Shown here in pieces: positions 1 through 29,628 of a stretch of 29,628 nucleotides of DNA; the first letter of the stretch is position 1, and each line of letters starts with the position of its first letter. A program made the position numbers and the translations under genes. A model generated the notes under the pieces. The model was not told the origin of the DNA. It was given only the letters and a program-made list of their open reading frames with translations, and ran no database searches. The stretch lies in IMG/VR virus record IMGVR_UViG_3300044630_005899, positions 1-29,628 of that record, one strand, 5' to 3'. This DNA comes from a virus.

Positions 1-235
1 TTGCGCCAGAGCAGACCACAGAGCGTAAACCATGCGGGTGTCAAGATGCCAAATAACGGGCTGATTTTCGAGACGGCAGCCATCGAGTGGAAGCTGGAGT
101 CGACAGCGACAGTCACAGGTTCAGGGTCAGGAACACTGGCAAAATCCCACACTGCGAATGCGTCGACGCAGTATGTGCCGAATGCGATAAACGTCAATAC
201 GGGCATCTACCTGGAGGTGTCATCGAGCGATGATG
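1..235. repeat. Left copy of the 235-bp terminal redundancy
   Basis: Bases 1-235 match 29394-29628 at every position except 113 (T here, C at 29506). Such an overlap is expected when a circular or circularly permuted genome is written as a line. The repeat lies inside coding sequence: bases 1-56 are the 3' end of the small gene that starts at 29249, and the rest is the start of the large tail gene. A true fixed-end phage repeat would more often lie near the terminase genes. Confidence 0.95.
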
Positions 236-3200
236 GTGCAGGGACAGTCGCATGGCAAGCGAAATACGATGGTCCTGGTGCGCCATTTGGCGGCTATATT
301 GTCGGTGCTGCAGCGTACCTGTCTACGGTCAGCATCACGGTCAGAGCGACTGGTGTCAAAATCTACTGCAAGCTGACAGGGTCGCTATTCAGGACAGTCT
401 GGAACAGCCTGATGGTTTTCGTGAACGGCACACTCCAGACGACACTGACAGGTGTCGATGTCACATCAAATGGTGTCGGTCCGAACTATATCGACTACAT
501 CGGAACACCATTGTATGCCACAGGCAGCTGCAGCGCAGCCAAGGTTTACACACCATCGGTGTACGATCCATGCGATCCAGCAGCTATGGAGTATGTGACA
601 GAGGCGGAGGCAAATCAGACCATCACAGCTGGCTGGCGATTTCAAGACGAAACGAACGCATGGACCACACTGCCGTGTGCAGTGTGGACGGCAAGCATTC
701 CGACATCAGGAAGCTGCCCCTATAATCTAAGTTTCGGCAGCGAGGTCCAGGTCGCTGACACTAACAGCATCATCATTTCGACTAGGTCCTACCAGAAAAC
801 AGAGCGAACCTATGACGGCCGCCGCGCACTCATGCAGCGAGTCGTCGGTGAGTGTGTCGGTGAGGACGGCAGCACCATCGTCTATGACGAAATCGTGCAG
901 GGCTACTGCGTTGATCCATGCACGGACGAGTACGACGACGGATACATCGATGCCTACTATGTCGAAAGCTGGAGCGAAAGTCATGGCGGCGCAGCAAGAG
1001 CGATTCCAAACCTAGAGCGGGCCATCGTCAGGCTTAACAGCGATTACAAGGCATTGTGGCGGAGGTTCGATTTCCCAGAGGTCAGAGGGTCTGCGACCAG
1101 GACCTGCACAAATGGCGCAGTGTCGGTCAATACAGGCGGCGCGACGACTGTCTACACCGACCTGGGAACCGATTTTCTGGAGGTCGTGACAAATTCGACG
1201 AGCAACGTCGAGCAGGCATTTCCGAACACTATCTATACACAGGCGAACTGGTCGAAGGGCAAAACCTACAATAAGTCATGGTTTTATGAGGGCAGCAGCG
1301 TCTGCCTATGTCCGCCGCCATCCGTACCGATTCCATCGTGTCCAGAGGGTGAGGTGCTGGCATGGACCTGTACGAACATCGCGCCGACAGATACAGGTGT
1401 CAATCAGGCTGAGTCGATCGCCATCACATTTCCATCATTCGTAGACACGCTGGCTGGCTATCAGGGACATGCCGACATGCTGATGCGCTATACAGGCAGC
1501 TGGGTAAATCCACACTGGGGTCTGGCATACCATCGCGACGACTGGGATGTCGACGGCGCGAGTCAGCCATGGGAGGATTACTGGGGACCGATTAAGGAGC
1601 AGTGGCTATACAATGCCGCGCTGCCATCAAATCCAAGGACCAGGAACAGTCAGATTTCATCGCCGCTGGAAATTGACAATGGAAATCAGCCATTTCTGGA
1701 TGCGTTTTTCGGCGGGTTTCGGTGGATAGGCATCAGTAGATTCAAGCTGCTAACCATGACGCAACCCAGCAGCATCACACTTTCGACGAGCAGACCAGGT
1801 GTCTGGGCGACCAACAACTGCAGCATCAGCCTGAGCGCATCGAACATTACGGTGTCGGCATTCAGCGGGTCAGACACTTGGGTCGAGGTCGATTTGGCAC
1901 AGTGGACAGCGGATCCGTTTATGCTGCTGACGAAAGCATCGAGGGTCCAGGTCGGCTGGAATGTGTCGAACGTCAAAAACATCGATGTGGCATTTATCGG
2001 CGCAGACAATGCCAGCAACTACATCGCGAATGCTGCAGGGACCTATGACCTGCCGACGGGCATCCAGCTGAAATATGCAGGCACTTGGGCGATCGATAAC
2101 GGCTACTCCATCATCAGTGGCATATCTGACACAGGCACAGACGAGCGCACAGACGGTGTGTCTGCGACGTACATGGCGGATCCCGAGAAGGTCGTCGGAT
2201 TTCAGCTAGGGAAAGGCAGGCAATTCGGCAAGCTGCGGTTTCGTATCACACCGACAAACCCAGCAAATTCAGTCACAATCAACTGGCCGATATTCACGCT
2301 AGAGGCGACACATCCGCTGGTCTATCATGAGAACAGTCGAGCTGCCAGCATGCTTTGGGCGGACGGTCCAAACCATCGCTATGGAAATCTGACATGGTAC
2401 AGTCCGATTCTGGGTTTTCAGGATCCTCCGCTAGTCACAGGCATGGGAACACCAAACACGGTCATCGATGCACTCGCATTCAAGTACAGGATTGTGAACG
2501 GAAACGGCGGCGCGAGTCTGGCATCGACCATCACGACGGATCTGTCGAGTCTATACGATTCGTATGAGGGTCAGAGCATCGCAGTCGTCGATAAATTCTC
2601 GACCAGCTATGTCCTGCCGAAGGGAACGAACGAGGACCTGCGGCTGGCACTCATCAATTCATTCTCAGAGATTCCGCCGCTGGCATGTTTTCCATTCAGA
2701 AAGCGCAGCCTGGTCGATTGGACAGCATCAGGCAGCTACTGCCAGGTGGTATACGATCATGTACAGGACGGCAGGTATCTGATTTCAAATGCTGCTGCAG
2801 CTGCGAAACTCCAGACTCCAGCAGCTGCGGATTCAGGGTCTGCGGTCGCTGTGCCGCCAGCTGGCTGGTACATTTGGCGATTCAATCCAGTCCTAGATAA
2901 CCAGGAGGTCGACTGGCGCATCGTGTCGAATTCTGAGCTGTACGCGAAGGTACGGCCATGGCATGGATGGTTTTCACTGCTCAGGTCGGCAGCATGCAAA
3001 ACGTCGCTGGACATCGATTTCGCATCGAATGTGCATGGCGCAGCATTCGTCGATTCAGGCGGAAATGTGCTGGTCAGGAAAGCCGACAATCAGCTGGCAT
3101 TTGCAACGGTGGACACACTGGCACTGGCAGCCACATCCGCAGTGATGCGCATCGATCGCCAGTCGACAGACCAGAAAATCTATCTGGTGGCGGAAATCAA

Positions 3201-3537
3201 CAAGTCCATCAAGTTATACAAATCAAATCAGCTAGGAGAGGGATTCACACTTATGAGAACAATCGCAAATGGAGTCAAACCATGTTTCGTCATTGGTCGC
3301 GATGGGAATCGCTACATCTATTGGATAGATGGCACAGCCATCAAGGGACAGATAACTGATCGAGCAGACACTGTGCTGCAGGCATCGGTGACAGCAGTCG
3401 CATCAGGTGTCGACGACGAATGCATCGCAGTCGATGAGGACGTGACAAACGGCGGCAATCGGCGGCTGGTCCTGATTGATGTCGAGAGCGGGAGCCTGAC
3501 GCAGCGCACGTCGGACGACGGTATCACATTCAGCTAG
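46..3537 (+). CDS. Large distal tail protein, 1163 aa (putative host-recognition/tail-tip protein)
   Basis: I do not recognise a named family across this protein. It is long, rich in Ser, Thr, Gly and aromatic residues, has no membrane segment, and carries scattered Cys-containing clusters, for example around residues 170-185 and 415-435. This composition suggests a beta-rich extracellular structural protein. The C-terminal 130 residues resemble beta-propeller blades and end in an Asp-box-like motif (TSDDGITF) just before the stop. The ATG at 46 is chosen because the frame enters from the upstream gene and this is the first ATG; it overlaps that gene's 3' end by 11 bp. A TTG at base 1 is also in frame. 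It follows the tape measure and tail-hub genes on the circle and precedes fibre-like genes, so a tail-tip or receptor-contacting role is inferred from position. The stop is TAG, and the frame stays open for 20 codons beyond it. Confidence 0.75.
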   Translation: MPNNGLIFETAAIEWKLESTATVTGSGSGTLAKSHTANASTQYVPNAINVNTGIYLEVSSSDDGAGTVAWQAKYDGPGAPFGGYIVGAAAYLSTVSITVRATGVKIYCKLTGSLFRTVWNSLMVFVNGTLQTTLTGVDVTSNGVGPNYIDYIGTPLYATGSCSAAKVYTPSVYDPCDPAAMEYVTEAEANQTITAGWRFQDETNAWTTLPCAVWTASIPTSGSCPYNLSFGSEVQVADTNSIIISTRSYQKTERTYDGRRALMQRVVGECVGEDGSTIVYDEIVQGYCVDPCTDEYDDGYIDAYYVESWSESHGGAARAIPNLERAIVRLNSDYKALWRRFDFPEVRGSATRTCTNGAVSVNTGGATTVYTDLGTDFLEVVTNSTSNVEQAFPNTIYTQANWSKGKTYNKSWFYEGSSVCLCPPPSVPIPSCPEGEVLAWTCTNIAPTDTGVNQAESIAITFPSFVDTLAGYQGHADMLMRYTGSWVNPHWGLAYHRDDWDVDGASQPWEDYWGPIKEQWLYNAALPSNPRTRNSQISSPLEIDNGNQPFLDAFFGGFRWIGISRFKLLTMTQPSSITLSTSRPGVWATNNCSISLSASNITVSAFSGSDTWVEVDLAQWTADPFMLLTKASRVQVGWNVSNVKNIDVAFIGADNASNYIANAAGTYDLPTGIQLKYAGTWAIDNGYSIISGISDTGTDERTDGVSATYMADPEKVVGFQLGKGRQFGKLRFRITPTNPANSVTINWPIFTLEATHPLVYHENSRAASMLWADGPNHRYGNLTWYSPILGFQDPPLVTGMGTPNTVIDALAFKYRIVNGNGGASLASTITTDLSSLYDSYEGQSIAVVDKFSTSYVLPKGTNEDLRLALINSFSEIPPLACFPFRKRSLVDWTASGSYCQVVYDHVQDGRYLISNAAAAAKLQTPAAADSGSAVAVPPAGWYIWRFNPVLDNQEVDWRIVSNSELYAKVRPWHGWFSLLRSAACKTSLDIDFASNVHGAAFVDSGGNVLVRKADNQLAFATVDTLALAATSAVMRIDRQSTDQKIYLVAEINKSIKLYKSNQLGEGFTLMRTIANGVKPCFVIGRDGNRYIYWIDGTAIKGQITDRADTVLQASVTAVASGVDDECIAVDEDVTNGGNRRLVLIDVESGSLTQRTSDDGITFS

Positions 3538-5437: not shown

Positions 5438-5674
5438 TCAGCGCAGCAGATAGGCGGCTAGAAAGACCAGGACAGCCAGCAGGACCATCGAGCAGGCGCC
5501 GAGCCAGTCCATGTCGTGCGACTTAATAGTTGACAGGGATTTCGAGCGAGCGAGCAGCTGCAGCATGTCATTGTTCATTTGCTGTCGCTGGGTTTCGGTG
5601 AGGTTTTCGATGCGATCGATTTCGTCTTGTGACAGAACGACGTCGCTGAGTTTGTGTGAGTAGTCTGATTTCAT
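5438..5674 (-). CDS. Small protein with C-terminal membrane anchor, 78 aa
   Basis: Last gene of the leftward operon. Residues 1-55 are hydrophilic and probably helical (LSQDEIDRIENLTETQRQQMNNDML). Residues 58-77 form one membrane segment (LGACSMVLLAVLVFLAAYLL) followed by a single Arg, as in a tail-anchored protein. The start at 5674 is supported by GGAG nine bases upstream; an earlier in-frame TTG at 5698 lies before that site. The operon seems early and is transcribed away from the lysis genes, so a holin role is less likely than a membrane-directed host-takeover or exclusion role. Function is unknown. Confidence 0.7.
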   Translation of the reverse strand: MKSDYSHKLSDVVLSQDEIDRIENLTETQRQQMNNDMLQLLARSKSLSTIKSHDMDWLGACSMVLLAVLVFLAAYLLR

Positions 5675-5675
5675 T

Positions 5676-6059
5676 TTAGTTAACTCCAGAGGTTTCAAGG
5701 GCAGGTGCGATGTGTGGCAGCAATTCGGTCAGTGTGTCATTGGTCCAGTTATAGACAAACTGCACGACATCCGAAATCGGTCGCAGATTGTTTTTGCCGT
5801 GCGATTCGTAAATCTCGACGCAGTGGACGATTGAGTCATATGCTGCCGCATAGTCAACGCAGCGCGACAGATAGAAATGCGCGAGGTCTGGAATGTCGTG
5901 CGTCCGAAGAAACAGCGCGACGTAGTGTGCAGCCAGGATGGTCGTGTTGCTGCCAGTGATCGGCACGACCTGGGCAGTCGAGCTGGTGCTGAATGTCGAG
6001 GCAGTAACGGTGGTCGAGTTTTCGGTGCGCACGATATGCGCGAATAGTTGTGGTTTCAT
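5676..6059 (-). CDS. Hypothetical leftward-operon protein, 127 aa
   Basis: Not recognised. The N-terminal third is Ser/Thr-rich (NSTTVTASTFSTSSTAQVV) and the remainder looks helical with aromatic residues (HYVALFLRTHDIPDLAHFYLSRCVDYAAAYDSIVHCVEIYES). There is no signal peptide or clear membrane segment. The start ATG overlaps the stop of the upstream gene (ATGA) and one base separates its stop from the next ATG, so translation is coupled along the operon. Its length is identical to that of the gene before it (127 aa), but I see no convincing sequence relation. Confidence 0.65.
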   Translation of the reverse strand: MKPQLFAHIVRTENSTTVTASTFSTSSTAQVVPITGSNTTILAAHYVALFLRTHDIPDLAHFYLSRCVDYAAAYDSIVHCVEIYESHGKNNLRPISDVVQFVYNWTNDTLTELLPHIAPALETSGVN

Positions 6060-6439
6060 TTGATGTAGTCCGAGAGGATAGGCAAGATGTCATAGACGAA
6101 CAGCACGGTCCGCTGGGTTTCGTCGAGCTGGTGTGCAGCCATGTCGCTAAAGTGGAGCTGGTGTGCAACCAGGTCGCTGGAATGGGTGCTGAACCATTCA
6201 GGAATGAAATGCGATTCGACGACAGCCATGCAGCTGTCGAGGTCACATGCGTCCAGGTCGTGCGAGGCATCCGTGTACCAGCTGGTGATTTGTTTGAGTT
6301 CAGTTTTTGACCAGCAGGCATCGCAGGTTTCTGGCGCATTTTGAAAGTCGCCATCATAGCAGGCGCAGCCATTGAGGTCAGCATCATTCAGCAGGTCTGA
6401 CATGGTCTGTCTGATGGAAGCAATCAGCAGGTCTGTCAT
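6056..6439 (-). CDS. Cys-rich hypothetical leftward-operon protein, 127 aa
   Basis: Not recognised. Cysteines cluster in residues 25-45 (GCACYDGDFQNAPETCDACW), with two more near residues 65-70, a pattern that could bind metal or form disulfides. It is strongly acidic and rich in Asp and His. Near the C-terminus a ten-residue unit is repeated (SDLVAHQLHF, then SDMAAHQLDE), encoded by a DNA repeat 30 bp apart. It overlaps both neighbours by four bases. A small acidic early phage protein that binds a host target is one possibility, but this is only inference. Confidence 0.65.
   Translation of the reverse strand: MTDLLIASIRQTMSDLLNDADLNGCACYDGDFQNAPETCDACWSKTELKQITSWYTDASHDLDACDLDSCMAVVESHFIPEWFSTHSSDLVAHQLHFSDMAAHQLDETQRTVLFVYDILPILSDYIK
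6125..6178. repeat. Two 24-bp tandem repeat units 30 bp apart inside a leftward gene
   Basis: Units at 6125-6148 and 6155-6178 agree at 22 of 24 bases and start with GAGCTGGTGTGCA. They keep the reading frame of the leftward gene and give a duplicated AHQL peptide. The likely origin is a short slippage duplication. Confidence 0.8.
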
Positions 6440-6915
6440 TTGACCACCATCGCCGCGGCGCCGAGCGCGAGCTGCGCATGTCTGTCAAAGTCGGCATAGT
6501 TTCCAGTCGTGCCGATGGTCCATCCGCTAGCACGCATGTGATCGAGCCAGACGTCCTGCATTTGGTCGGCATCATGGTCGCTGCCGAAATAACCAGCAGC
6601 AGCCATTCGGACCAGTTCCTCAAGCGTGAATGTGAACTCATAGTTCCCAAGGTCAAGCATTTCCTGCCAAAACTTTTTACTTGATTGAGCCAAGCAGCTG
6701 TCTCGCAGTTCAACGATTTGATCTCCAGTGAAATTCAATTCAACGACTTTCATGCCGCCGATTTTCTGTGCCATGGCGCATGCGTCATCAAAGCTGAAAA
6801 ACTTTTGCGCCTGCATGATTGAGCTGGTCAGCTGATGTCTATTACCATGCATCAGGTATCGAGTGACTCCCTGGCTGGCAGAGTGTCGAGATTCCAAAGC
6901 GTAGATTTTGTTCAT
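6436..6915 (-). CDS. First gene of the leftward operon, hypothetical, 159 aa
   Basis: Not recognised. The N-terminal 50 residues (MNKIYALESRHS...GVTRYL) resemble small phage early proteins that begin with a strand followed by a TRYL segment, but I cannot name a family. The middle is helical and the C-terminus is basic to neutral. The start at 6915 is preceded by CGGAAACAC. An upstream in-frame ATG at 6936 and a TTG at 6945 are also possible, but the predicted leftward transcription start is near 6944, which leaves little or no leader for them. It is promoter-proximal and so probably among the first genes expressed. Confidence 0.65.
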   Translation of the reverse strand: MNKIYALESRHSASQGVTRYLMHGNRHQLTSSIMQAQKFFSFDDACAMAQKIGGMKVVELNFTGDQIVELRDSCLAQSSKKFWQEMLDLGNYEFTFTLEELVRMAAAGYFGSDHDADQMQDVWLDHMRASGWTIGTTGNYADFDRHAQLALGAAAMVVK

Positions 6916-6950
6916 GTGTTTCCGTGTCGACTCCATCGCCGACAAACTCT

Positions 6951-7085: not shown

Positions 7086-7268
7086 ATGGCACATAAAACC
7101 ATGAACGAACTGATCGAGGAGGCGGCGCAGTGGCTGATTATTCAGCGAAACCTGCGACCATTTTCTCGCATCGCGAAAGAGGCGGGGCTAAGTCCCCAGG
7201 GTCTGCGATACCGAGCAGAACAATACATGCGCACTGGCAAGCTGCCAGGACAGAAAGGACAGAAATAA
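7086..7268 (+). CDS. Small helix-turn-helix protein, putative regulator, 60 aa
   Basis: First gene of the rightward operon. Residues 27-50 (RPFSRIAKEAGLSPQGLRYRAEQY) have the spacing of a helix-turn-helix: a first helix with A, a Gly turn, then SxxxLRYRAEQ as recognition helix. The C-terminus is basic (GKLPGQKGQK). Three ATGs are possible (7080, 7086, 7101) and none has a clear ribosome site. I place the start at 7086 because the TATACT at 7074-7079 would make that ATG the 5' end of the message. It lies next to a divergent control region with a repeated sequence, so autoregulation or a left/right switch is a reasonable inference. Confidence 0.6.
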   Translation: MAHKTMNELIEEAAQWLIIQRNLRPFSRIAKEAGLSPQGLRYRAEQYMRTGKLPGQKGQK

Positions 7269-7270
7269 AC

Positions 7271-7822
7271 ATGAGCGAACGAACATACACCATCATTGAC
7301 AACAACGTCGTCGAGACAGCGACAGGAGAAATCCTGTGCGAGGCAATTACGCACGACGGCATCACATCACAGACAGCACTGGAAGCGGCGCTAGAGCGCA
7401 TCGGCAGGACCGAGCATGTGCTGGCAGCCATGCAGCAGCACCACGCATTTATTCTCGACAACTGTCGGCGGCAGGAAAAGCGGCTGCAGTCGCACGTCGA
7501 CTACCTGCGCGATCTATACGGCGCACACATCGAGGCATTCGCACACGGTCGTCTGACAGGTCAGAAATCCAAAACTCTCGAAACTCCATTCGGCAAGGTC
7601 AAATTCCGAACGGTACGCGGCGGCCTCAAAGTAGTCGACAAAAACATGGCACTGGCACTGGCACATCAACACGGCTGGGTCGAGGCCATTAAGACCACAG
7701 AGGAGTTTCAGATTTCACGTCTGACAGAGCAGCAGCGCAGCATGTTGATCGAGCAGAAACCAGAGGGTTTCGAGGTCACATCCGACGTCGAAAAGTGTGA
7801 CATTGTGGTGGTGGACAAATGA
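7271..7822 (+). CDS. gam: Host-nuclease inhibitor Gam-like protein, 183 aa
   Basis: It resembles the Mu Gam-like family, whose members bind linear double-stranded DNA ends and protect them from RecBCD-type exonucleases. The central part is a long helix pair (QEKRLQSHVDYLRDLYGAHIEAFAHGRL) followed by the family's beta-hairpin signature TGQKSKTLETPFGKVKFRTVRGGLKV, and then a C-terminal LxxQHGWVEAIKTTEE segment. The length is close to that of Mu Gam. It overlaps the ERF gene by four bases (ATGA), in keeping with joint action in end protection and annealing. AAAGGA lies upstream of the ATG at 7271 with a rather long spacing. Confidence 0.8.
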   Translation: MSERTYTIIDNNVVETATGEILCEAITHDGITSQTALEAALERIGRTEHVLAAMQQHHAFILDNCRRQEKRLQSHVDYLRDLYGAHIEAFAHGRLTGQKSKTLETPFGKVKFRTVRGGLKVVDKNMALALAHQHGWVEAIKTTEEFQISRLTEQQRSMLIEQKPEGFEVTSDVEKCDIVVVDK

Positions 7823-8472
7823 CCAAGCCGCTGACACTCGCAGCGAAAGTTTTGGCAGTGAGCAGGTCCATCGGTGCAGTCGAGAAAAACGGATTAAACC
7901 AGCATTTCAAGTTTAAGTTTCAAGCCTGGGACGACGTCCTGCCAGCTGTCCGAAACGCATGCGTCGAGCATGGTGTGCAGATTACACCGACGGTCAGGAA
8001 CGTGCGGCACGATGGACAGCATGTGCTGGTCGAAATGGCATTCACGGTGCGCGACACGGAATCCGATCAGCGCGACGAATTCGTGTGGTTTGGCGAGTCG
8101 AAAGGGAACGACGACAAAGGCATCCAAAAGGCCATCACCAGCTGTACCAAATACGCGCTGCTGAAATATCTGATGATTCCTATCGTCGACGACACCGACA
8201 CCGATGCTGATGGTCCTGCGAATCCAGCAGCGAAGCCACCAGCGCCGACGAAAGTCACGGTCGAGGATGCGAGGACAGTCATGAGAAATTCGGTCAAAAA
8301 TCACTGGCAGGGAATGGGCGGCACGAACGGTCAATTTACGCAGCTGCGCGAGCTGGCTGTCGCTAAAGGTTTGGACATTTTTGAAATTTTGCACTATGCA
8401 TTTTTGCACTTGTCTCATGGAACGATTGAGGACATTGAGCAATTCGTTAAGGAGTCATTGGCAGACAAATGA
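7819..8472 (+). CDS. erf: ERF-family single-strand annealing protein, 217 aa
   Basis: The N-terminal 140 residues match the ERF family of phage annealing recombinases. Visible signatures are GLNQHFKFKFQAWDDVLPAVRNACVEHG, the strand V-M-A-F-TVRD, and DKGIQKAITSCTKYALLKYLMIP. These proteins pair complementary single strands and help circularise or recombine phage DNA. An acidic hinge (DDTDTDADG) and a Pro/Ala linker lead into a C-terminal domain, residues 160-217, that ends in LADK. The order Gam, ERF, SWIM protein, SSB forms a compact recombination cassette with coupled starts. Confidence 0.88.
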   Translation: MTKPLTLAAKVLAVSRSIGAVEKNGLNQHFKFKFQAWDDVLPAVRNACVEHGVQITPTVRNVRHDGQHVLVEMAFTVRDTESDQRDEFVWFGESKGNDDKGIQKAITSCTKYALLKYLMIPIVDDTDTDADGPANPAAKPPAPTKVTVEDARTVMRNSVKNHWQGMGGTNGQFTQLRELAVAKGLDIFEILHYAFLHLSHGTIEDIEQFVKESLADK

Positions 8473-8741
8473 CTAAACGATTCCAGCGGATGCCAGTCTA
8501 TCTGGTGGATGTGGTCGACGGTGAGTGTCTGTTCATCGTCGGCAGCGAAAGTCGCTGGAATCATTTCTACGAGGTCCATGTGAATGCACACGGACACACT
8601 ACCTGCGACTGCCAGGATGCTGGATTCAGACGAAAACAGCCGCAGTTTCTCGACATCATCACAGACAAAAACGCGCTGGCATGCAAGCATATGAGGCGCA
8701 TCGGCCAGCAATACAGGAAACTACAGAACAATGGTAAATAG
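8469..8741 (+). CDS. SWIM-type zinc-binding protein, 90 aa
   Basis: Residues C46, C48, C72 and H74 form CxC...CxH, the ligand pattern of SWIM zinc domains, framed by a small beta-sheet (YEVHVNAHGHTTCDCQ) and a helix (CKHMRRIGQQYRKL). SWIM proteins bind DNA or protein partners, and some cellular members assist recombinases. Here the gene sits between ERF and SSB with overlaps on both sides, so a helper role in annealing or SSB loading is a plausible inference. The protein is only one domain long. Confidence 0.75.
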   Translation: MTKRFQRMPVYLVDVVDGECLFIVGSESRWNHFYEVHVNAHGHTTCDCQDAGFRRKQPQFLDIITDKNALACKHMRRIGQQYRKLQNNGK

Positions 8742-9132
8742 AACAATTCTCATCGGACGACTCACTCGCGATCCAGAGCTGCGCACGACATCCACAGGAA
8801 AGGACGTCGTCGAATTCAGCATCGCGGTCAACAAGCGGATTAAGCCACAGGAAGGACCAGACGCGGATTTCTTTCGCGTGAGAGCATGGGGTCAGGTGGC
8901 ACGGTACGTCAGCGAGTACATCGGTCGAGGTCGTCTGGTCGCAGTCGATGGTCGGCTGGAGCAGCGCACATGGCAGGACCAGAACGGCAACAAGCGCGAG
9001 AGCATCGAGGTAGTCGCAGATAACGTCAACGCACTGGACAGACCAAGGGACGAATCAGGCGCGAACACATCAACGAATCGACAGCCTGAGCCAGCTGCGC
9101 ACGGCGAATATGATCCATTTGCTGATGAGTGA
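8731..9132 (+). CDS. ssb: Single-stranded DNA-binding protein, 133 aa
   Basis: A standard OB-fold SSB: MVNRTILIGRLTRDPELRTTSTGKDVVEFSIAVN, then FFRVRAWGQVARYVSEYIGRGRLVAVDGRLEQRTWQDQNGNKRESIEVVADNV, all hallmark segments of bacterial and phage SSB. A hydrophilic linker ends in an acidic tip, EYDPFADE, resembling the DDDIPF tip that recruits partner proteins but with extra residues after the Phe. It overlaps the previous gene by 11 bp. Its role is to coat single strands in phage replication and recombination. Confidence 0.95.
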   Translation: MVNRTILIGRLTRDPELRTTSTGKDVVEFSIAVNKRIKPQEGPDADFFRVRAWGQVARYVSEYIGRGRLVAVDGRLEQRTWQDQNGNKRESIEVVADNVNALDRPRDESGANTSTNRQPEPAAHGEYDPFADE

Positions 9133-9136
9133 TGCC

Positions 9137-9271
9137 ATGATGAATAATACAAGCATGTGGCAAGTCGGTCTGGCAGTCATCGTCATTTTGGGGATTATGG
9201 TCGCGTATGCGGCCATAGTCGTCAGCGACTTGGAGATTGATGATATAGACGAGGAGGAGTTTCCGAAATGA
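9137..9271 (+). CDS. Small single-span membrane protein, 44 aa
   Basis: Starts with ATGATG five bases after the SSB stop. Residues 7-28 (MWQVGLAVIVILGIMVAYAAIV) form one membrane segment, and the tail is strongly acidic (DLEIDDIDEEEF). The stop overlaps the next start (ATGA). No family is recognised. In an early operon such a protein could act on the host membrane. It is real on the grounds of coding context and coupling, but is too short for certainty. Confidence 0.55.
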   Translation: MMNNTSMWQVGLAVIVILGIMVAYAAIVVSDLEIDDIDEEEFPK

Positions 9272-9432
9272 CAGTCGGACGAGCTGCTGACATCATCGCG
9301 AGCTGTGACCACATGACACTAGATGTCGTGCGACCAGGCATCTGGCAGCTGACGTGCGGCGACGAAATCGACATCATCGGTGAGCAGCAGTTGATTGACC
9401 TGGCGAGAAAAATCGAGGACGACGGCGCATAG
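9268..9432 (+). CDS. Hypothetical small protein, 54 aa
   Basis: Begins inside the stop of the 44-aa gene (ATGA), and GAGGAGG just upstream gives an excellent ribosome site. The sequence MTVGRAADIIASCDHMTLDVVRPGIWQLTCGDEIDIIGEQQLIDLARKIEDDGA has an N-terminal and a C-terminal helix around a short beta unit. Two Cys residues are not arranged as a metal site. Function unknown; the position among replication genes suggests an accessory protein. Confidence 0.6.
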   Translation: MTVGRAADIIASCDHMTLDVVRPGIWQLTCGDEIDIIGEQQLIDLARKIEDDGA

Positions 9433-9452
9433 AAATCAGGACAGGGACCATC

Positions 9453-9824
9453 ATGAGAAAAACCTACACGACCACCATCACCATGTCGCCGACGGTCAAC
9501 AACCTGTACGCAAACGTGCCTGGCAAGGGTCGGCGCATGACAGGTCATTACAAGGTCTGGCGGCAGGGTGTGGTCCAGTACATGGCACTCACGCTGAAAC
9601 GGATTGATGGTCCTGTCCGCATCGACTACATGTTTAATTTAGGCAGCACGTTTCGAGGTGACCTGTCGAATCGGATCAAGGCGATCGAGGACGCGCTAGT
9701 CGAGGCAGGCATCATCAAGGGCGACACATTCAGTGTAGTCGTCGCGGCTGCCTATGAGCATCGTCGCGTCGAGGACAAGGAGTCGTCGGTCACTATCACA
9801 TTGACACCGATTGTGATAGAATAA
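9453..9824 (+). CDS. rusA: RusA-like Holliday junction endonuclease, 123 aa
   Basis: Length and layout match RusA, a dimeric nuclease that cuts Holliday junctions. The core motif at residues 69-91 reads GDLSNRIKAIEDALVEAGIIKGD. D70, K76 and D91 sit at the same numbers as the catalytic residues of E. coli RusA, but the position of D72 is Ser. The IKGDTF end is also looser than the usual DD. Activity may therefore be changed, or another acidic residue (D80) may compensate. It lies 20 bp after the small gene and before a structured leader. Role inferred: resolving branched DNA before packaging. Confidence 0.8.
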   Translation: MRKTYTTTITMSPTVNNLYANVPGKGRRMTGHYKVWRQGVVQYMALTLKRIDGPVRIDYMFNLGSTFRGDLSNRIKAIEDALVEAGIIKGDTFSVVVAAAYEHRRVEDKESSVTITLTPIVIE

Positions 9825-9917: not shown

Positions 9918-10745
9918 ATGAAAATAATAGACGAGCCTGGTGAGTCCAGGCATTCAACATCGGCAACGCCGCTAGGCTGGTACAAATGGTATCCCAGGGA
10001 TTTCCTGGCGAGCAGCACAGTGAGGCGCATGTCATTCACTGCACAGGGTGTATATCGCGCACTGCTCGACCTGCAATGGGAAGACGGATTTCTGATTTCT
10101 TATGATGATGCAGCTGCGATTTTGCGACTGACACCAGAGGAAAAATCCGCGTTTCAGCCATTCTATGACCTGTGTTTTCCTGATGGAATCAATCCGAAAA
10201 TAGACGAGCAGCGGCAGGCATCTTTAACCTACATCGAGCGTCAAAGACAGGTCGCGAAAAACAAGCCTAAGGCTAGGTCAAGGGTAGCTAACAGCAAGCC
10301 TAAGGCTAGATCCAGGGTAGCTAACAGCGAGCCTACAGCTAGTGTCAGCCCAACAGAAACAGAAACAGAAACAACAACAGAAACAGAAACAATGTTAACA
10401 CTAGATAAATCTAGTGTAGAGACGACGCATGTTTGGTCGATTCCTGATGGTCTGCAGACAGAGAAATTCATGCACTCATGGTCGGCATTTGTGCAGCACA
10501 GGAAGCAGATGCGGAAACCGATTTCGGCTGTCGGTGGCAAGGCACTGCTGCGGAAACTAGAGCAGCATTCTGTCGAGGTCGCGACAGCTGCACTCGACGA
10601 ATCACTGTCGAACGGATGGCAGGGAGTGTTTCCAGAAAAAGTCGACATCGAACGACCTGGGCGCGCCAGGTCAGTACAATTTGATAACGGAAAGCAATCC
10701 ACACTGGCACGTCTAGGCGGCCTGGGAGATTACGAACATGAATGA
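9918..10745 (+). CDS. DUF1376-type replication protein, putative initiator, 275 aa
   Basis: Residues 19-110 match the DUF1376 domain of phage replication proteins (GWYKWYPRDFLASSTVRRMSF, then VYRALLDLQWEDGFL, then the LTPEEKSAFQPFYDLCFP region), expected to be a winged-helix-like DNA-binding part. Residues 112-170 are a low-complexity linker with KPKARSRVANS twice in tandem and then a Thr/Glu run. A helical C-terminal part (residues 172-275) follows. The linker DNA contains direct repeats and a palindrome, as in lambda O, whose gene holds the lambda origin. A helicase-loader candidate follows directly. GAGGGAAGAGG lies at the right distance from the ATG. Initiator function is inferred. Confidence 0.8.
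   Translation: MKIIDEPGESRHSTSATPLGWYKWYPRDFLASSTVRRMSFTAQGVYRALLDLQWEDGFLISYDDAAAILRLTPEEKSAFQPFYDLCFPDGINPKIDEQRQASLTYIERQRQVAKNKPKARSRVANSKPKARSRVANSEPTASVSPTETETETTTETETMLTLDKSSVETTHVWSIPDGLQTEKFMHSWSAFVQHRKQMRKPISAVGGKALLRKLEQHSVEVATAALDESLSNGWQGVFPEKVDIERPGRARSVQFDNGKQSTLARLGGLGDYEHE
9935..9951 (+). promoter_or_regulatory. Hairpin within the first codons of the replication gene
   Basis: GCCTGG and CCAGGC pair perfectly around TGAGT. The hairpin begins 18 bases after the start codon. CATTCAACA follows at 9951-9959 and repeats one arm of the leader stem at 9834, and GGTGAGT recurs from 9843. It could modulate translation by competing with the leader structure. Confidence 0.4.
10262..10417. 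other. Candidate replication origin inside the DUF1376 gene
   Basis: Two 33-bp direct repeats (10262-10294 and 10295-10327) agree at 31 of 33 bases. Each contains the dyad AGCCT-A-AGGCT and GGTAGCTAAC. A partial third unit starts at 10328. Next comes an A-rich CAGAAA-type run (10357-10391), then a 20-bp inverted repeat with arms ACACTAGAT and ATCTAGTGT (10398-10417). Iterons, an AT-leaning run and a palindrome inside an initiator-like gene copy the plan of the lambdoid origin in gene O. Confidence 0.55.
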
Positions 10746-16979: not shown

Positions 16980-16982
16980 CAA

Positions 16983-19085: not shown

Positions 19086-20225
19086 ATGCCAGAAATTTTC
19101 TATCCGCCAAAAGCCGTACAAAACGCATGCAAACGAGGTCTGCAGCTATTTGAGGAGGGTCTGGGCGGTGACGGTCTGGAACCAGCGACCATCAAGGAAG
19201 CCAGGTCGATGGCAGCTGGTGAAATCCAGACAGAAAACAAAATCCGCAAAGGTTATCGGTGGTGGGCGCGAAATAAACGGTTTCTCGACGAGCCAGAGGA
19301 CAGTCCAGCGTATGTGGCTGCGCTGCTATGGGGAGGAAGGTCTGCGATTCCATGGTTTACATCTGCCTATAATTACATTATTGAAAACGAAGGTAGACAA
19401 ATGAACATCGCAAAAATTCAGCATCGACAATTCGACCTGCGCATGGATGATGCCGTCGAATCAAAAGGCGGCCTCAAAGGTACGGCATTGGCATACGGCA
19501 AATTGGATTCGTACAATACAGTTTTCGCGCCAGGGTCCGCCACAGCTGCGCTGCCTGATTTCGTCGCGAACGGTTCATTTTTGGCTGCACACGACGCGGA
19601 TGATTTGGCGATTGGCTACATCAGGTCGGCTGTCGACACAGGCACAGGTGTCGAGGTCGAGGTCGACTATCACACAACAGGTGATGCCCAGGACGCACGC
19701 ACGGTCGCCATGGAACGTCTAGCTGCTGGGAAAAAGGTCGGTCTGTCCATCGGGTTCACGATCGGCGACTATGTCGAATGTCAGAACGGGGACGCACTGC
19801 TGGAAATGGCGGCGAGCATGGGCATGGACCTAAACCAGTTCGATGTGGAGAACATCCGCAAATGCCAGCGTGAATGTTATCTGCTGGTGCGACTGGCGAA
19901 AATTTTCGAGGTGTCGCAGGTCAATTTTCCTGCCGTACCTGATTCGGAGGCATCTGCTGTCCGACAAGATTTTGGAGCTGCTCATGCTGGCAGGTCCATG
20001 GCTGATGAAATCGATTTTGCTCGTGATGCAGTCGATGCAGCAACTAAGCGAGCGACCGAGGTTTTCGAGCTGCGGTCGAGCGACAACAAAACATTGGGCA
20101 AAGTTTCCATCGAGAAACTCTATGCGCTGCGGGAGGCACTGGACCAGCTGATTGAAGCTGCCAGCGCGCCGACAGCCATGGAGCGACAGGCGGAAAAATT
20201 TGCCAGATTGAGGAACATCAAATGA
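19086..20225 (+). CDS. Prohead protease with N-terminal helical domain, 379 aa
   Basis: Residues 120-280 carry the HK97-type (S78) maturation protease core, with the catalytic His in AAHDADD (H169) and Ser in VGLSIGF (S221). It trims the capsid protein during assembly. The first 100 residues (AVQNACKRGLQLFEEGLGGDGLEPATIKEARSMAAGEI...YVAALLWGG) form a separate helical domain seen before proteases in other phages. An internal ATG at 19401 with AAGG seven bases upstream would give the protease alone. The C-terminal 90 residues are helical and may act as a scaffold. Confidence 0.87.
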   Translation: MPEIFYPPKAVQNACKRGLQLFEEGLGGDGLEPATIKEARSMAAGEIQTENKIRKGYRWWARNKRFLDEPEDSPAYVAALLWGGRSAIPWFTSAYNYIIENEGRQMNIAKIQHRQFDLRMDDAVESKGGLKGTALAYGKLDSYNTVFAPGSATAALPDFVANGSFLAAHDADDLAIGYIRSAVDTGTGVEVEVDYHTTGDAQDARTVAMERLAAGKKVGLSIGFTIGDYVECQNGDALLEMAASMGMDLNQFDVENIRKCQRECYLLVRLAKIFEVSQVNFPAVPDSEASAVRQDFGAAHAGRSMADEIDFARDAVDAATKRATEVFELRSSDNKTLGKVSIEKLYALREALDQLIEAASAPTAMERQAEKFARLRNIK

Positions 20226-21433
20226 AATCAGTAAACGAGCTAAATCAACAACTAGCTGCTGCTGTATCGTTCGTCGATGAAACTCGCGCAACCTACGAAG
20301 GCAAGGCAACCATGCCAGCTGATGTAGAGGCGAGATTCGACAAAGCGGTCGCAGACATGCTAGACGCGAAAAAGGAACTTGAGGTCCGAGCAGAACTTGA
20401 GTCGGCACGATCATTCATGATGCAGCCAGCAAATGGTCCAGCGGTCATGGGTGCTAACAACAGCCAACAAGTCGAGGACGCAGCTGTACGCAGCTGGCGA
20501 CAGTACCTGCGAGGCGACAGCAGCCAGGTATCGAACATCCGCGCAAATCAGCAAGTGAATCCAAACACTGCTGGTGGATTTTTGGTCCCGACGGTGATTT
20601 TGAACGAAATCATCAAGCCAGTCAACGATCCGATTTTCATGCGACAAATCAGCCGCGTGCAAACCATCAGAGGCAACGTTTCTGTCCCACGGCAAACCAA
20701 CCGAGCCACATCATACTGGCAAGGTGAAACCGAAACAGCCATCGCAACCAGTGTCACAACTGGCCAGCGAGATTTCAAACCACACCGAGTGACTGTGAAA
20801 ACATCAAACTCCAGACTGCTCATCGAGCAGTCGGTCATCGATGTCGAGCAGTGGCTGGCTGAGGAACTCGACTACAGCGTGCGACTGAAGGAAGAAGCAG
20901 CTGCAATGCAAGGAAATGGCACTGGTCAATGGCTAGGAATTTTCACTGCATCGGCAGACGGCATCAGCACTGCGCGAGACGTTGAAACTGCTGGTTCAGG
21001 AACCATCGCCGCAGACGACATCATGTCCGTCATGATGAATTGTAAGATGACCATTCGAAACCGAGCAAGCTGGGTCGGCAGCCGACAATTTGTGACTGCG
21101 GTCATGAAATTGAAGGACAGCGCGAATCAGTACATTTTCAGTGAGTCCGCTGGAATTGGAAACGTGCTTGCGGTCGGTACACCAATGACTCTCAAGGGTC
21201 GTCCATTGTACGAGTCCGAGTCCGCACCGACAGCATTGACTGCTGGCAACTACCCAGTAGTATTTGGAGATTTCCAATACTATCACATCTATGATTTTCT
21301 TAACCTGGCTATCCAAGTCCTGGTGGAAGATCCTTACGCATCCGCTGGTGAGTATGGCTACGTCATGCACAAATTCAGCGACGGTGCGCCAGTCCTAGAA
21401 GAGGCATTCAGCCGATTGAAGGTGAAAAGCTAA
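20222..21433 (+). CDS. Major capsid protein, HK97 fold, 403 aa
   Basis: Residues 1-105 are charged and helical (ELNQQLAAAVSFVDETRATYEGK...), the delta-domain that acts as internal scaffold and is removed by the upstream protease. The mature part starts near residues 110-123 (VNPNTAGGFLVP) and contains typical segments TNRATSYWQGETETAI, SRLLIEQSVIDVEQWLAEEL, GTGQWLGI and YHIYDFLNLAIQVLVEDP. The start codon overlaps the protease stop. It makes the icosahedral shell. Confidence 0.94.
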   Translation: MKSVNELNQQLAAAVSFVDETRATYEGKATMPADVEARFDKAVADMLDAKKELEVRAELESARSFMMQPANGPAVMGANNSQQVEDAAVRSWRQYLRGDSSQVSNIRANQQVNPNTAGGFLVPTVILNEIIKPVNDPIFMRQISRVQTIRGNVSVPRQTNRATSYWQGETETAIATSVTTGQRDFKPHRVTVKTSNSRLLIEQSVIDVEQWLAEELDYSVRLKEEAAAMQGNGTGQWLGIFTASADGISTARDVETAGSGTIAADDIMSVMMNCKMTIRNRASWVGSRQFVTAVMKLKDSANQYIFSESAGIGNVLAVGTPMTLKGRPLYESESAPTALTAGNYPVVFGDFQYYHIYDFLNLAIQVLVEDPYASAGEYGYVMHKFSDGAPVLEEAFSRLKVKS

Positions 21434-25365: not shown

Positions 25366-26916
25366 ATGGGTGCAGTCGTCGTCGAACAGGTAGTTGCTCA
25401 GTTCATTCTGGACGACAAGGGCTATAAGAAAGGCGCGGATGCTGTCGTCAAAGAGTCGCAGAAAGTCGCGAAGGCTGTCGATAATGCGACTGATTCAACC
25501 AAGCGAAAGGGCGGCGCACTCAAGAACATCGGCGAGGGATTCGGCGCGATTACTGGTGCATTCGGAGCTGTGGCTGCGACCATCGGTGCTGTGGCGATTC
25601 CGCTGGCGCTAGGCGGAAAAGCTGCTGTGCAGACGGCGATTGAATTTGACACACTGCAGCGATCTCTCACAGCTATCACTGGCAGCGGCGAGCGAACTGC
25701 ACAGATTCTAGGGTTCATTGATAAGCTGGCGATTCCATCTGTTTTCGACACTGCGACACTAGGCGAGTCGGCAAAGCTGCTGGAGGCATTTGGTCTGAAC
25801 ACTGAACGATTCCTGCCGATTGCGGAAAAGCTAGGCACGGTTTTCGGTGGAAACGCGGAGTCGCTGAATTCATTTGTGGCTGCGCTAGGCTACCTGAAAT
25901 CGGGTCGATTCGGTGAGGCATTTGAGTCGCTGGCCAGAGGCGGTGTCAGTCGGGAGCTGCTGACACAAAAGGGTCTGGAATTCGACAAGGGCGGTAGTTT
26001 CAAAGGCACGGTCGAGCAGGCGCTGACTGCGGTCGAGCTGGTGGTCAATGAGAAATTCGGCAAGCTGTCCGAGGAAATGGCATCGGGTCCGATGGCGAAA
26101 CTGGCGAGCCTGGGCGATGCGTTCAATCGGGTCATGCGCCAAATCGGTCTGGCGCTGGTCGGTCCTGTTGTCACAGTTTTCGAGACACTGTCTGGTGCGA
26201 TGGAAAATCTGACGAAGGTGAACGTTTTCGGTGATGCAATCAAATCGTTCATAGGGTCGATTCAAAGCATCGGCGGTGTCAGCATGGATGCCGAGGAGTC
26301 GCTGCTGAATCTGTCTGGCACATTCGTCGCACTGGGTGTGTTTCTCAAAAATTTGGCGGAAGGTTTCATGATTTTCAAGGACCAGGTCATCGCACTGGCT
26401 GAAATGTTTCCTGGCATAAAATTGTATCGAGCGCATCTAGGCAATTTGGCAAACGCGACTGGTCTGACGGCAAATCTTAGCGAGGCATACGGCGGCGGCG
26501 AAGCAGAGCGATTCATCGGTGTAAAACGATTTGATTTGGAGCAGCGCAGAAAACGAATGGCGGAGGCAGCAGCTGGGGAAGGTCTGGCAAAAGCTGGGGA
26601 TAAACCAGCAGCCGAACCAACGGTGAGTCCTGGCGAGTCGGTCAAGGACCTGCTGAAAAACATTTCCGACAGCAGCGCAACAACTGCGAGCAACACAGAG
26701 AAGCTGGCGAACATCAACGACAGAGTCCTGGGCGGCGGTGGTCTGGCATCGAGAGGTTTGAGTCGGCAGGAAATGACGGACCTGCAAACCAGACGTAGCA
26801 GCGGGACAAAGGAAATCAAGGGTCTGCTGGTCGAGCTAGGCTATGCCATCGAGCGAAACGTGAATCAGACATCAGCACGGAACATCGGCTATAACGTGAG
26901 CAGGCGGGAGGTTTAA
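25366..26916 (+). CDS. Tape measure protein, 516 aa
   Basis: Sets tail length. The N-terminal part is helical and polar (LDDKGYKKGADAVVKESQKVAKAVDN), residues 58-84 form a Gly/Ala-rich hydrophobic stretch (FGAITGAFGAVAATIGAVAIPLALGG), and long Ala/Leu helices follow. At the usual 0.15 nm per residue it predicts a tail of about 75-80 nm. AGGA at ideal spacing precedes the ATG. It starts two bases after the end of the shifted chaperone frame. Confidence 0.88.
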   Translation: MGAVVVEQVVAQFILDDKGYKKGADAVVKESQKVAKAVDNATDSTKRKGGALKNIGEGFGAITGAFGAVAATIGAVAIPLALGGKAAVQTAIEFDTLQRSLTAITGSGERTAQILGFIDKLAIPSVFDTATLGESAKLLEAFGLNTERFLPIAEKLGTVFGGNAESLNSFVAALGYLKSGRFGEAFESLARGGVSRELLTQKGLEFDKGGSFKGTVEQALTAVELVVNEKFGKLSEEMASGPMAKLASLGDAFNRVMRQIGLALVGPVVTVFETLSGAMENLTKVNVFGDAIKSFIGSIQSIGGVSMDAEESLLNLSGTFVALGVFLKNLAEGFMIFKDQVIALAEMFPGIKLYRAHLGNLANATGLTANLSEAYGGGEAERFIGVKRFDLEQRRKRMAEAAAGEGLAKAGDKPAAEPTVSPGESVKDLLKNISDSSATTASNTEKLANINDRVLGGGGLASRGLSRQEMTDLQTRRSSGTKEIKGLLVELGYAIERNVNQTSARNIGYNVSRREV

Positions 26917-29252
26917 TGCCACGACCACAGTTTTATTTTGATGTAGATGTCGAGCAGTGGCGACAGTCGCAGGATAGAATCGGGTTCAGCGCTGCTGGGG
27001 ACGATTTTAACACAGGTCAATTTTTCGCAGACACGTTCATCGATCCGCTGACAAACACTTTAATGCTGCGACCACGGCCGTTCTACCCAGCATGGTATAC
27101 CAGCAATACTGCGCCGTATGACAAGCTAGGTCTGGCTGATTTTGGTCTAGGCGCGACCTGGTCAGTGACAGACATCACTGGTGTCGGTGGCAGCAAGTTT
27201 CTGGAGGGTCCGACATCGGCGAAGGGAACATCGGTCATTACGACTGCGACCTACGCGAAAAACACGGGATTCTATGTCGCGTTTTTCGGCTACTCAGAGG
27301 GGAGTCGATATACGCTGGCTGAGTTTGGCTGGGATGCTGGAGGCAGTGTCAGCAGCAATACAGCATGCAGACTCTATTCCGATGGTCTGGTCGAGGTCTG
27401 GCGGAACGGTGTCAAGGTGGTCGAGGGTCAGGTGTCTGGTGCGAAAGGCGGCGCGACGATTCAGAACACGCTGATTGAGCTGGTGCTAATTCCATGTCGA
27501 CGTCGCGAGCTGCTGGTCCTGTCGACTGCAGGAAACGGTGTGCGCGCGATTTTCCCAGACATTCTGGATTCAGACACAAATCCGACGATTACACCAGCTA
27601 CGCAGTTTTGGATAAAAATGAACGGGACGGTGAAATTTCAAGCTGCGCCGCTGAAATTCGCGACGTCAGGCTATGCCAGCAGCCAGCTATATGATTTGGC
27701 GGAAGCGCCAGCAGTCGCAGCTGTGCTGGAAACTTACACGAATGCGAGCTGGGGATCAGGGACAGCGATGATATACGGCGACCAGAGCTATCGCACAGGG
27801 AACAGCGATGCAGTCGTCGCGAGCATAACCGAGACAGACGGCACGACGACATTTGTGCCAGACGGTGTCAAAACTCAAATCAGAGTCAGAGCAGCCATGA
27901 CAGGAAACGGTCTATCGACACCAGTCGTCTACGGCATTTCTGGCGGATACAAGGCACTGTCTGCGAACACTGACGGTAGTGAGTCGGCGAACCTGTCTAC
28001 CTACTGGCAAGGCATGAGTTTCAGCGTGCCAGAGACAGGCGGCGCGACATTACGTTGGGACCTATTTGATCCGCTGGGCATTGGTCTTTATGGTCTGGAA
28101 TCGCACGCGAACAAGCCGACAAAAACGACACTGGGGACAACTGTTTTCCACAATGGGATTACCGAACCGATTGAATGGATTGAGGGCACGACACCATCAC
28201 TAGGTCGAGCGACACTGACATCAAATTCGCACATTACGCAGCTGCTGAAAACGTACATGTTTCGCGAGCGCATGGTTTTCGATGGCATGCTGATAAGCCA
28301 CGCGAGCAGCGACTGCGTCATTAAACGGCTAGTCGAGCTGGTCGGCGGCAGCAGCGCGGACCTGGCGCTCGAAACAGCCGCAGTAAGAGCAGGCGACATC
28401 GCACCAGCGCAGTGTGGAGATTTCAGCGAGATTGCGGATATCGGGGAAAACGCATGGTCATTCCTGTCCAGGATGATGCAGGATTATCTGGGCGGCTGGT
28501 GGTATGGCGAGTACCCACATGCGACCACACCGAAATTCACGACGAAATCGCCAGCGACCATGAATGCCGCGGCGAGCAAGTTTACGTTTTATGACACCAT
28601 CGCGAATGCCATCGCAGCAGGCAAGTCATCATCCGAGGCATGGCGCTACGTCTACAGGCAGCAGCGCTACCATTATATAAACCCAGAGGCGAATGAAATC
28701 ATTGTGACTGGATTTGATCCACGGCTGCAGCAGACGGTCCAAGCAGTCAAGCGTGACACAGCGAGCATCGATCCAACAGTTGCACCATCCGCCAGACCGA
28801 CCAACTGGATCGGCGGCACATCGAGGCTGGGTTTAATCAACAAGGGTCTGGCATCGCAGGACCTGGTCGATTCGGCTGCTGGGCTGCTGTATGACAGGTG
28901 CAGTCCTGCCAGACAGATAAACGAGATCGAGGTCGAGCTGCCAGTGATTTCTGACGTCACAGGATTCCCAGTCTGGGTGTCTGATAAAGTCACACTTAAC
29001 GGCATCGATTTCCTAGTCACATCGATTCAAGGTGGAGTCGAAAAGGATCCTGACGCATCGAGCAGCGACGACTTCATGTGGAGGCCGTGTACCTACGTTT
29101 TGTCGAATATTGTCGGCTACAGCAACGCAGCGAATTTCGACAACATCGTCGCGTTTGGCACGGTGAACGGTCTGCGAACGGCACTGGCGCGTCGAGGGTT
29201 CATGGATGGCAGTATGACGCGGCTGCAGATTGCGTCGCGGAACATTCTATGA
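26916..29252 (+). CDS. Large tail-tip/baseplate hub protein candidate, 778 aa
   Basis: First gene after the tape measure (TAATG), where distal tail and hub proteins are expected. Residues 110-230 resemble a lectin-like beta sandwich (NTGFYVAFFGYSEGSRYTLAEFGWDAGG, then YSDGLVEVWRNGVKVVEG). The C-terminal third (SFLSRMMQDYLGGWW, then VTLNGIDFLVTSIQGGVEKDPD) has the flavour of phage hub proteins. There is no signal peptide. It may combine the roles that other siphophages divide between distal tail and tail-associated proteins. Assignment is by order and style. Confidence 0.65.
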   Translation: MPRPQFYFDVDVEQWRQSQDRIGFSAAGDDFNTGQFFADTFIDPLTNTLMLRPRPFYPAWYTSNTAPYDKLGLADFGLGATWSVTDITGVGGSKFLEGPTSAKGTSVITTATYAKNTGFYVAFFGYSEGSRYTLAEFGWDAGGSVSSNTACRLYSDGLVEVWRNGVKVVEGQVSGAKGGATIQNTLIELVLIPCRRRELLVLSTAGNGVRAIFPDILDSDTNPTITPATQFWIKMNGTVKFQAAPLKFATSGYASSQLYDLAEAPAVAAVLETYTNASWGSGTAMIYGDQSYRTGNSDAVVASITETDGTTTFVPDGVKTQIRVRAAMTGNGLSTPVVYGISGGYKALSANTDGSESANLSTYWQGMSFSVPETGGATLRWDLFDPLGIGLYGLESHANKPTKTTLGTTVFHNGITEPIEWIEGTTPSLGRATLTSNSHITQLLKTYMFRERMVFDGMLISHASSDCVIKRLVELVGGSSADLALETAAVRAGDIAPAQCGDFSEIADIGENAWSFLSRMMQDYLGGWWYGEYPHATTPKFTTKSPATMNAAASKFTFYDTIANAIAAGKSSSEAWRYVYRQQRYHYINPEANEIIVTGFDPRLQQTVQAVKRDTASIDPTVAPSARPTNWIGGTSRLGLINKGLASQDLVDSAAGLLYDRCSPARQINEIEVELPVISDVTGFPVWVSDKVTLNGIDFLVTSIQGGVEKDPDASSSDDFMWRPCTYVLSNIVGYSNAANFDNIVAFGTVNGLRTALARRGFMDGSMTRLQIASRNIL

Positions 29253-29449
29253 GAGACATCGTCGTGAACATCGGTGGAGAGGGCGACCAGACGAGCATTC
29301 CGCTGGTCATTCAGGGCTGCGAATGTCGGTCAGAGGATTTCGTCATGGCGCTGATTCAGTTCACAAATTCATGGCGAGCTGCGGCTGATCGAGTTGCGCC
29401 AGAGCAGACCACAGAGCGTAAACCATGCGGGTGTCAAGATGCCAAATAA
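29249..29449 (+). CDS. Small hypothetical tail-region protein, 66 aa
   Basis: ATGA overlap with the hub gene. MRDIVVNIGGEGDQTSIPLVIQGCECRSEDFVMALIQFTNSWRAAADRV ends in a Cys-containing tail (TERKPCGCQDAK). It may be an adaptor between the hub and the 1163-aa protein, whose start lies within its 3' end. Its last 56 bases also appear at 1-56 because of the terminal overlap. Confidence 0.6.
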   Translation: MRDIVVNIGGEGDQTSIPLVIQGCECRSEDFVMALIQFTNSWRAAADRVAPEQTTERKPCGCQDAK

Positions 29450-29628
29450 CGGGCTGATTTTCGAGACGGCAGCCATCGAGTGGAAGCTGGAGTCGACAGC
29501 GACAGCCACAGGTTCAGGGTCAGGAACACTGGCAAAATCCCACACTGCGAATGCGTCGACGCAGTATGTGCCGAATGCGATAAACGTCAATACGGGCATC
29601 TACCTGGAGGTGTCATCGAGCGATGATG
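29394..29628. repeat. Right copy of the 235-bp terminal redundancy
   Basis: Identical to 1-235 except C29506 in place of T113. In the large tail gene this changes codon 38 of the frame counted from base 1 (Val in the left copy, Ala in the right). Confidence 0.95.
29439..29628 (+). CDS. Partial second copy of the large tail gene 5' end
   Basis: Starts at the ATG equivalent to base 46 and runs off the window. It is not a second gene but the same gene read again because the sequence overlaps itself. The one difference is Ala in place of Val (C29506 against T113). Confidence 0.9.
   Translation, partial: MPNNGLIFETAAIEWKLESTATATGSGSGTLAKSHTANASTQYVPNAINVNTGIYLEVSSSDD

Follow-up and report, generated by a model that had tools for sequence, protein, structure and literature searches.

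Why does a phage genome of 29,628 bases contain not a single copy of the tetranucleotide CCGG? The genome is the IMG/VR virus record IMGVR_UViG_3300044630_005899 (positions 1–29,628), which was analysed over its whole length and is referred to here as the window. CCGG is absent from the entire window (1–29628) and also from its circular junction, against 53–142 copies expected. The best explanation, which we regard as very probable, is that the phage avoids the sites of Type II restriction enzymes of its hosts, among them an enzyme specific for CCGG (HpaII/MspI specificity). The selector would be a host enzyme that cuts CCGG, and the hosts would be freshwater cyanobacteria. Unmodified CCGG in incoming phage DNA would be cut by such an enzyme; the phage would have lost every CCGG, mostly by synonymous change, and new copies would be kept out by removal as they arise.

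Absence of CCGG from the window and its close relatives

On the 29,393 unique bases of the genome, zero-order, first-order, and second-order models predict 141.6, 73.1, and 52.9 copies of CCGG, respectively. Synonymous codon shuffling within each of the 42 genes, which keeps the proteins and the codon counts constant, yielded 79.6 copies (standard deviation 6.7, minimum 58 in 1000 shuffles) versus 0 observed. A sequence-only reading of this DNA had noted the absence, which holds under every null, and had put the expectation above 100; that figure is right by base composition (142) but falls to 53–80 under the better nulls. In a comparison of tetranucleotides, CCGG has the lowest observed-to-expected ratio of all. 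Its neighbouring words are plentiful, both CCGA (139), CCGC (69), and CCGT (27), which the reading had called common, and ACGG (163), GCGG (160), and TCGG (164).

The absence extends into codon choice, and the rules proposed for three amino acids turned out to be exact: (i) proline is encoded by CCG in 0 of 135 cases before G versus 102 of 219 otherwise; (ii) arginine is encoded by CGG in 0 of 132 cases after a C-ending codon versus 82 of 388 elsewhere; and (iii) alanine is encoded by GCC in 0 of 60 cases before GG versus 128 of 851 elsewhere. The window offers 464 one-base synonymous openings to CCGG. None of its 42 open reading frames (ORFs), many of which match nothing, matched a methyltransferase family in Pfam, in agreement with the earlier statement that the genes show no methyltransferase motif. 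The earlier view that the strategy is avoidance and not modification finds good support in this result, by the zero counts in all contigs of the clade, and by the other Type II-like words avoided in the sister lineages (both described below).

Relatives were found and placed with the terminase large subunit TerL (15606–16979, plus strand); in IMG/VR, the terminase query returned 44 loci and a terminase alignment query returned 80 loci. The window and 15 contigs that are 77–91% identical to it in DNA form a clade (clade A; support 0.90 in the TerL tree), in which CCGG occurs 0 times versus 478 expected, with 16 of 16 contigs (256,859 bp) at zero. Clade counts here and below leave out the mosaic contig L012 as well as L034, L036, L042–L044, and L083–L088; L041 and L028 share a contig, which was counted once. 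The suggested comparison with related phages thus extends the absence to 15 close relatives, and it also revealed sister lineages that keep CCGG and avoid other words. When 10% of codons were exchanged at random for synonymous ones, 15.9 new CCGG sites arose (minimum 9, 60 runs). The clade stays at zero although synonymous change would create the word, and new sites would therefore have to be removed as they arise. At aligned CCGG sites of four relatives, 0 of 84 are kept in clade A, compared with 58 of 205 TCGA and 36 of 105 CATG sites, in comparisons that share sequences, with the window entering three times, and in which either state may be ancestral and the direction of change is indicative only. 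Support for the deeper nodes of the TerL tree is 0.35–0.43, too low to order the site losses.

Other words are also low in the window. Motif counts given below as pairs are observed/expected, and sibling words differ only at the degenerate position; the motif lists hold overlapping words, and the number of words is not the number of enzymes. GGCC (23 versus 91 expected; 22 versus 97 shuffled in the coding part) and GATC (65 versus 156 expected; 64 versus 137 shuffled in the coding part) are depleted, which the earlier reading had not mentioned, and the 23 residual GGCC sites are scattered from 817 to 29086 with no clustering. Besides CCGG, the words that reach no more than 5% of expectation are GGSCC, RGGCCY, RAGCTY, GRGCYC, and YACGTR. 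RAGCTY stands at 0/18, whereas YAGCTR is enriched (83/42), and ACGCC/GGCGT, which is not known to match any restriction specificity, has 2 copies versus 31.6 expected. Within clade A, GGCC is nearly gone from the subclade that holds G001 and G003 (2/95 and 1/94), and among four genomes compared CYCGRG is low in the window alone (2/17; G004 22/20, G001 29/26, and G003 24/22). TCGA is high in the window (287 versus 112 by base composition), and different palindromes are favoured in other lineages (TGCA 139/48 in L085 and AGCT 185/43 in L087); they are perhaps words left safe.

Erased words in the sister lineages

The sister lineages, with TerL 70–80% identical, have erased different words. In clade B (22 contigs, 248,858 bp), CCGG stands at 505/1233, GCGC at 13/672, and CGCG at 15/628. 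Three full-length members of clade B allow sibling words to be compared: (i) CCWGG is gone (0/42, 0/39, and 0/36), whereas CCSGG is kept (29/40, 33/38, and 32/35); (ii) RCATGY is gone (0/12, 0/13, and 0/11), whereas RCATGR is at or above expectation (30/26, 26/26, and 29/23); and (iii) RCCGGY is nearly absent (2/30, 0/34, and 3/27), whereas RCCGGR is common (24/30, 25/31, and 23/25). RCCGGY therefore makes up much of the CCGG deficit of clade B.

The same behaviour is seen in further relatives. In G410, RGATCY is at 0/32 versus 56/41 for YGATCR and 54/47 for RGATCR, and CCWGG is at 0/49 versus 28/23 for CCSGG; in G409, GCWGC is at 0/41 while GCSGC is at 22/12. That one word is lost and its sibling kept, with a degenerate position as the sole difference, points to Type II restriction specificity and not to dinucleotide or codon bias. 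Fragment G405 (L083) lacks GATC (0/39), GCGC (0/35), and CGCG (0/32) and holds CCGG at 1/25, and L034 lacks GGCC (0/30) and nearly lacks CGCG (1/31) but keeps GCGC (32/30) and CCGG (29/25).

In the mosaic contig L012 (1–4003), the clade-A-like bases 1 to ~2,700 hold all 20 GCGC copies and no CCGG, and the clade-B-like remainder holds both CCGG copies and no GCGC. This switch in site content coincides with the change in similarity from clade A to clade B at ~2,700, and L012 is either a natural recombinant or an assembly chimera. A broader proposal, which we put forward tentatively and hold to be somewhat doubtful, is that the codon and dinucleotide signature of these phages owes more to the restriction repertoires of their hosts than to tRNA pools. 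Each lineage would have recoded its genome around its own list of forbidden words, of which the switch in L012 would be an example; the absent words would then reveal which restriction enzymes the hosts have, and forbidden sites brought back by exchange between lineages would help to hold the lineages apart.

Two of these relatives carry genes of the DNA hypermodification type, as judged from their sequences, upstream of the terminase. In G410 (L142:12453–15702), these are ParB_N, a Tet/JBP oxygenase, an amino acid:DNA transferase (ADDT), and a weak PALP-like protein; in G409 (L141:13333–14202), a TET-associated glycosyltransferase is found. G407 and G409 (L138–L141) have a mean protein identity of ~56–59% to the window, yet their codon usage and dinucleotides are strongly different. 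In G407, glutamate is encoded by GAA in 93% of cases, and CTC/GAG is at 0.18 of expectation on fragment L085; in G409, valine is encoded by GTG in 2% of cases, and CG is at 0.26 of expectation on fragment L087.

Other explanations, host, and genome content

A host factor other than a Type II enzyme that reads CCGG, such as a modification-dependent or other nuclease or a DNA-binding silencer, is an improbable selector. What is seen is sequence avoidance only, and the Type IV word YCGR noted by Rusinov et al. (PMC6286503) overlaps CCGG. However, the words erased in the sister lineages are short palindromes, several of them degenerate, as is the case for orthodox Type II sites, and it is these sites that are mostly avoided according to the same study. 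Avoidance of CRISPR protospacer adjacent motifs was rejected by reasoning alone, since the words read as palindromes and have degenerate centres.

Mutational decay, in which host or past phage enzymes methylated CCGG at cytosine and deamination then removed it, with cutting playing no selective part, is very improbable. The C5 methyltransferase part included in the examined cyanobacterial HpaII proteins is in its favour, and so are 23 of the 59 single-step differences at aligned CCGG sites, which are of the inner-C to T class. However, 32 of the 59 are transversions, a count that is indicative only (the sequences are shared, and either state may be ancestral). The CCGG positions of the relatives correspond to many different words in clade A, and deamination alone is therefore insufficient for the loss. 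Moreover, decay would not hold an exact zero in 16 of 16 contigs amid continuing synonymous change, and it cannot explain the loss of CCWGG in clade B with CCSGG kept.

General composition or codon usage, with scarce CC/GG or host-like codons making CCGG rare, has next to no chance of being the cause: CC/GG is at 0.74 of expectation in the window and codon usage varies strongly between lineages, but the second-order model still expects 53 copies, and the codon shuffle and the proline codon rule refute it. A sequencing, library, or assembly artefact removing CCGG can be dismissed with near certainty, because, although every clade member is metagenome-derived, clade-A contigs and CCGG-bearing relatives share the record-name prefix, which we take to be the metagenome number, in five cases (L005/L027, L007/L088, L010/L085, L040/L017, and L037/L033).

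Restriction by a host enzyme is the preferred explanation. The host is likely a freshwater cyanobacterium, judging from protein matches. The best matches of TerL are Microcystis phages (48%). The first match listed for the portal protein (16983–18341, plus strand) is Synechococcus phage Sc-Yong805-2 (29.5% identity), and the tail protein (26916–29252, plus strand) matches this phage only, as the one match among 50,697 phage records (32.5% over 93%). Among 388 cyanobacterial genomes, a single one has a tail homologue (43%), located on a contig of 4.3 kb.

CCGG is the recognition site of HpaII, a known Type II specificity (family RE_HpaII, PF09561). Of the 388 cyanobacterial genomes, 8 have a protein of this family that passes the cut-off, as does 1 of 14 control genomes. 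In the three proteins examined (L144:1498–3558, L145:1498–3501, and L147:592–2550, all in cyanobacterial genomes), the HpaII-type domain is fused behind a C5 cytosine methyltransferase in one chain of 652–686 residues. The MspI-type family matched 0 of 388 cyanobacterial genomes, but the control also matched nowhere, which makes this result uninformative. The earlier suggestion of a CCGG-cutting host enzyme, which remains a candidate selector, is thus partly supported as the natural reading, with HpaII-type enzymes present in some cyanobacteria; words other than CCGG are avoided too.

Several observations weigh against restriction by a cyanobacterial CCGG enzyme. The HpaII-type family is rare, and two of the eight proteins are incomplete while a third is interrupted by a stop codon. 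We know of no restriction specificity that fits RAGCTY. Two sibling controls in the full-length clade B members are unclean, as YCCGGR is below expectation too (7/18, 8/18, and 10/17) and GGSCC is low (7/29, 7/29, and 6/24) together with GGWCC (0/32, 2/29, and 0/27). Mae-JY24 and Sc-Yong805-2, the best cultured matches by TerL and by the tail protein, respectively, do not avoid CCGG. When the first 20 kb were searched against the 388 cyanobacterial genomes, only short, noise-like matches in 25 genomes resulted (E ≤ 0.01), many of them in a repetitive stretch near 10352, and the terminase alignment gave a single weak match (30%) among genome contigs, in a Cyanobium metagenome-assembled genome. 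A simple test for repeats showed no CRISPR-like array in the 12 loci that the cyanobacterial search returned or in 5 further loci. The best match of the major capsid protein (HK97 type, Pfam; 20222–21433, plus strand), which is Streptomyces phage Chymera (31%), points elsewhere and is of no help in naming the host.

The genome belongs to a small tailed phage with double-stranded DNA and has 42 ORFs with 28,080 coding bases. Its 29,628 bases include a 235-bp direct terminal repeat, with the left copy (1–235, plus strand) identical to the right copy (29394–29628, plus strand); because of these identical ends, the genome is most likely complete, with 29,393 unique bp. According to PHROGs and Pfam, the plus strand encodes recombination proteins (Mu Gam-like, an Erf-like annealing protein, SSB, and a RusA-like resolvase; 7265–9824), an O-like replication initiation protein (9918–10745; PHROGs), an N-acetylmuramoyl-L-alanine amidase endolysin (Amidase_3; 12883–13428), a phosphoesterase-like gene upstream of the terminase genes (PHROG 7339, "DNA repair exonuclease"; 13716–14579; PHROGs), the terminase small subunit (15155–15637), and the tape measure protein (25366–26916; Pfam). 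A protease is also encoded. No tRNA genes were found in the window, and neither an integrase nor a repressor turned up in the PHROG results for 20 proteins or among the 13 Pfam families matched by the 42 ORFs, many of which are matchless. The region 15606–18341 has no DNA matches among cultured phages. Four overlapping minus-strand ORFs at 5438–6945 gave no hits in Pfam (0 of 4) or, for the three tested, in PADLOC, which gave zero hits on 10 window proteins.

Comparison with cultured cyanophages and known systems

Site avoidance itself is a known strategy, also in cultured cyanophages. The numbers of words that stay within 5% of their expected count are 5 in N-1, 8 in Mic1, 18 in Pf-WMP3, 1 in Sc-Yong805-2, 1 in Mae-JY24 (GGWCC, 3/90), and 0 in MaMV-DC (partial genomes were used for N-1 and Mic1, first 50 kb each, and for MaMV-DC, first 41.7 kb). 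In the study group, the numbers are 6 in the window, 3 in G001, 10 in G005, 9 in G007, 14 in G407, 11 in G409, and 16 in G410. With cultured cyanophages at up to 18 words, multi-word purging is therefore not peculiar to the study group. Nostoc phage N-1 lacks GGCC (0/24), RCATGY (0/14), TTCGAA (0/11), GGWCC (0/10), and CYCGRG (0/7), and its list at or below 5% comprises GGCC, RCATGY, GGYRCC, TTCGAA, and AGATCT. Its avoided words include what we take to be sites of the Anabaena/Nostoc enzymes AvaI, AvaII, NspI, and AsuII. N-1, Phormidium phage Pf-WMP3, and Microcystis phage Mic1 resemble the sister lineages, with overlapping zeros at GGWCC, CCWGG, GCWGC, RCATGY, and CYCGRG. Unlike the window, these phages retain CCGG (69/56 in N-1, 35/43 in Mic1, and 16/55 in Pf-WMP3). 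The absent word of the window is the exact HpaII recognition sequence, and the HpaII restriction-modification family is present in some cyanobacterial genomes.

Cyanobacteria that form blooms are rich in restriction-modification systems, with ~16 per Microcystis genome, and cut-site diversity among wild viruses still needs accounting for, according to a modelling paper (PMC8262939). The notable feature here is that related, partly co-occurring phages differ in the set of sites that each has lost, which provides an example of such diversity. Should the erased lists correspond to host enzymes, the defences of a host, and clues to its identity, could be read from the genome of an uncultured phage. 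In the open-access literature, we found no report of avoided sites that switch from one lineage to the next, which is no proof of novelty. In Elhai 2015 (PMC4390886), GATC is generally underrepresented in two large cyanobacterial groups and rCCGGy methylation is described; similarly, GATC is low in the window (65/156) and RCCGGY is avoided by clade B, but host genomes are concerned there and phages here. Nostoc phages carry methyltransferase genes, as stated in another study (PMC4916379).

Rusinov et al. 2018 (PMC6286503) report complete or near-complete site loss in about one-tenth of viral genomes, mostly of orthodox Type II sites and in non-temperate phages. The window is similar in that it has lost Type II-like palindromes and has no recognised lysogeny gene. 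G410, with its genes of the hypermodification type, still avoids 16 words, unlike the hydroxymethylase coliphages described in that paper. In contrast to the phages covered there, several lineages of one phage group here avoid different sets of words.

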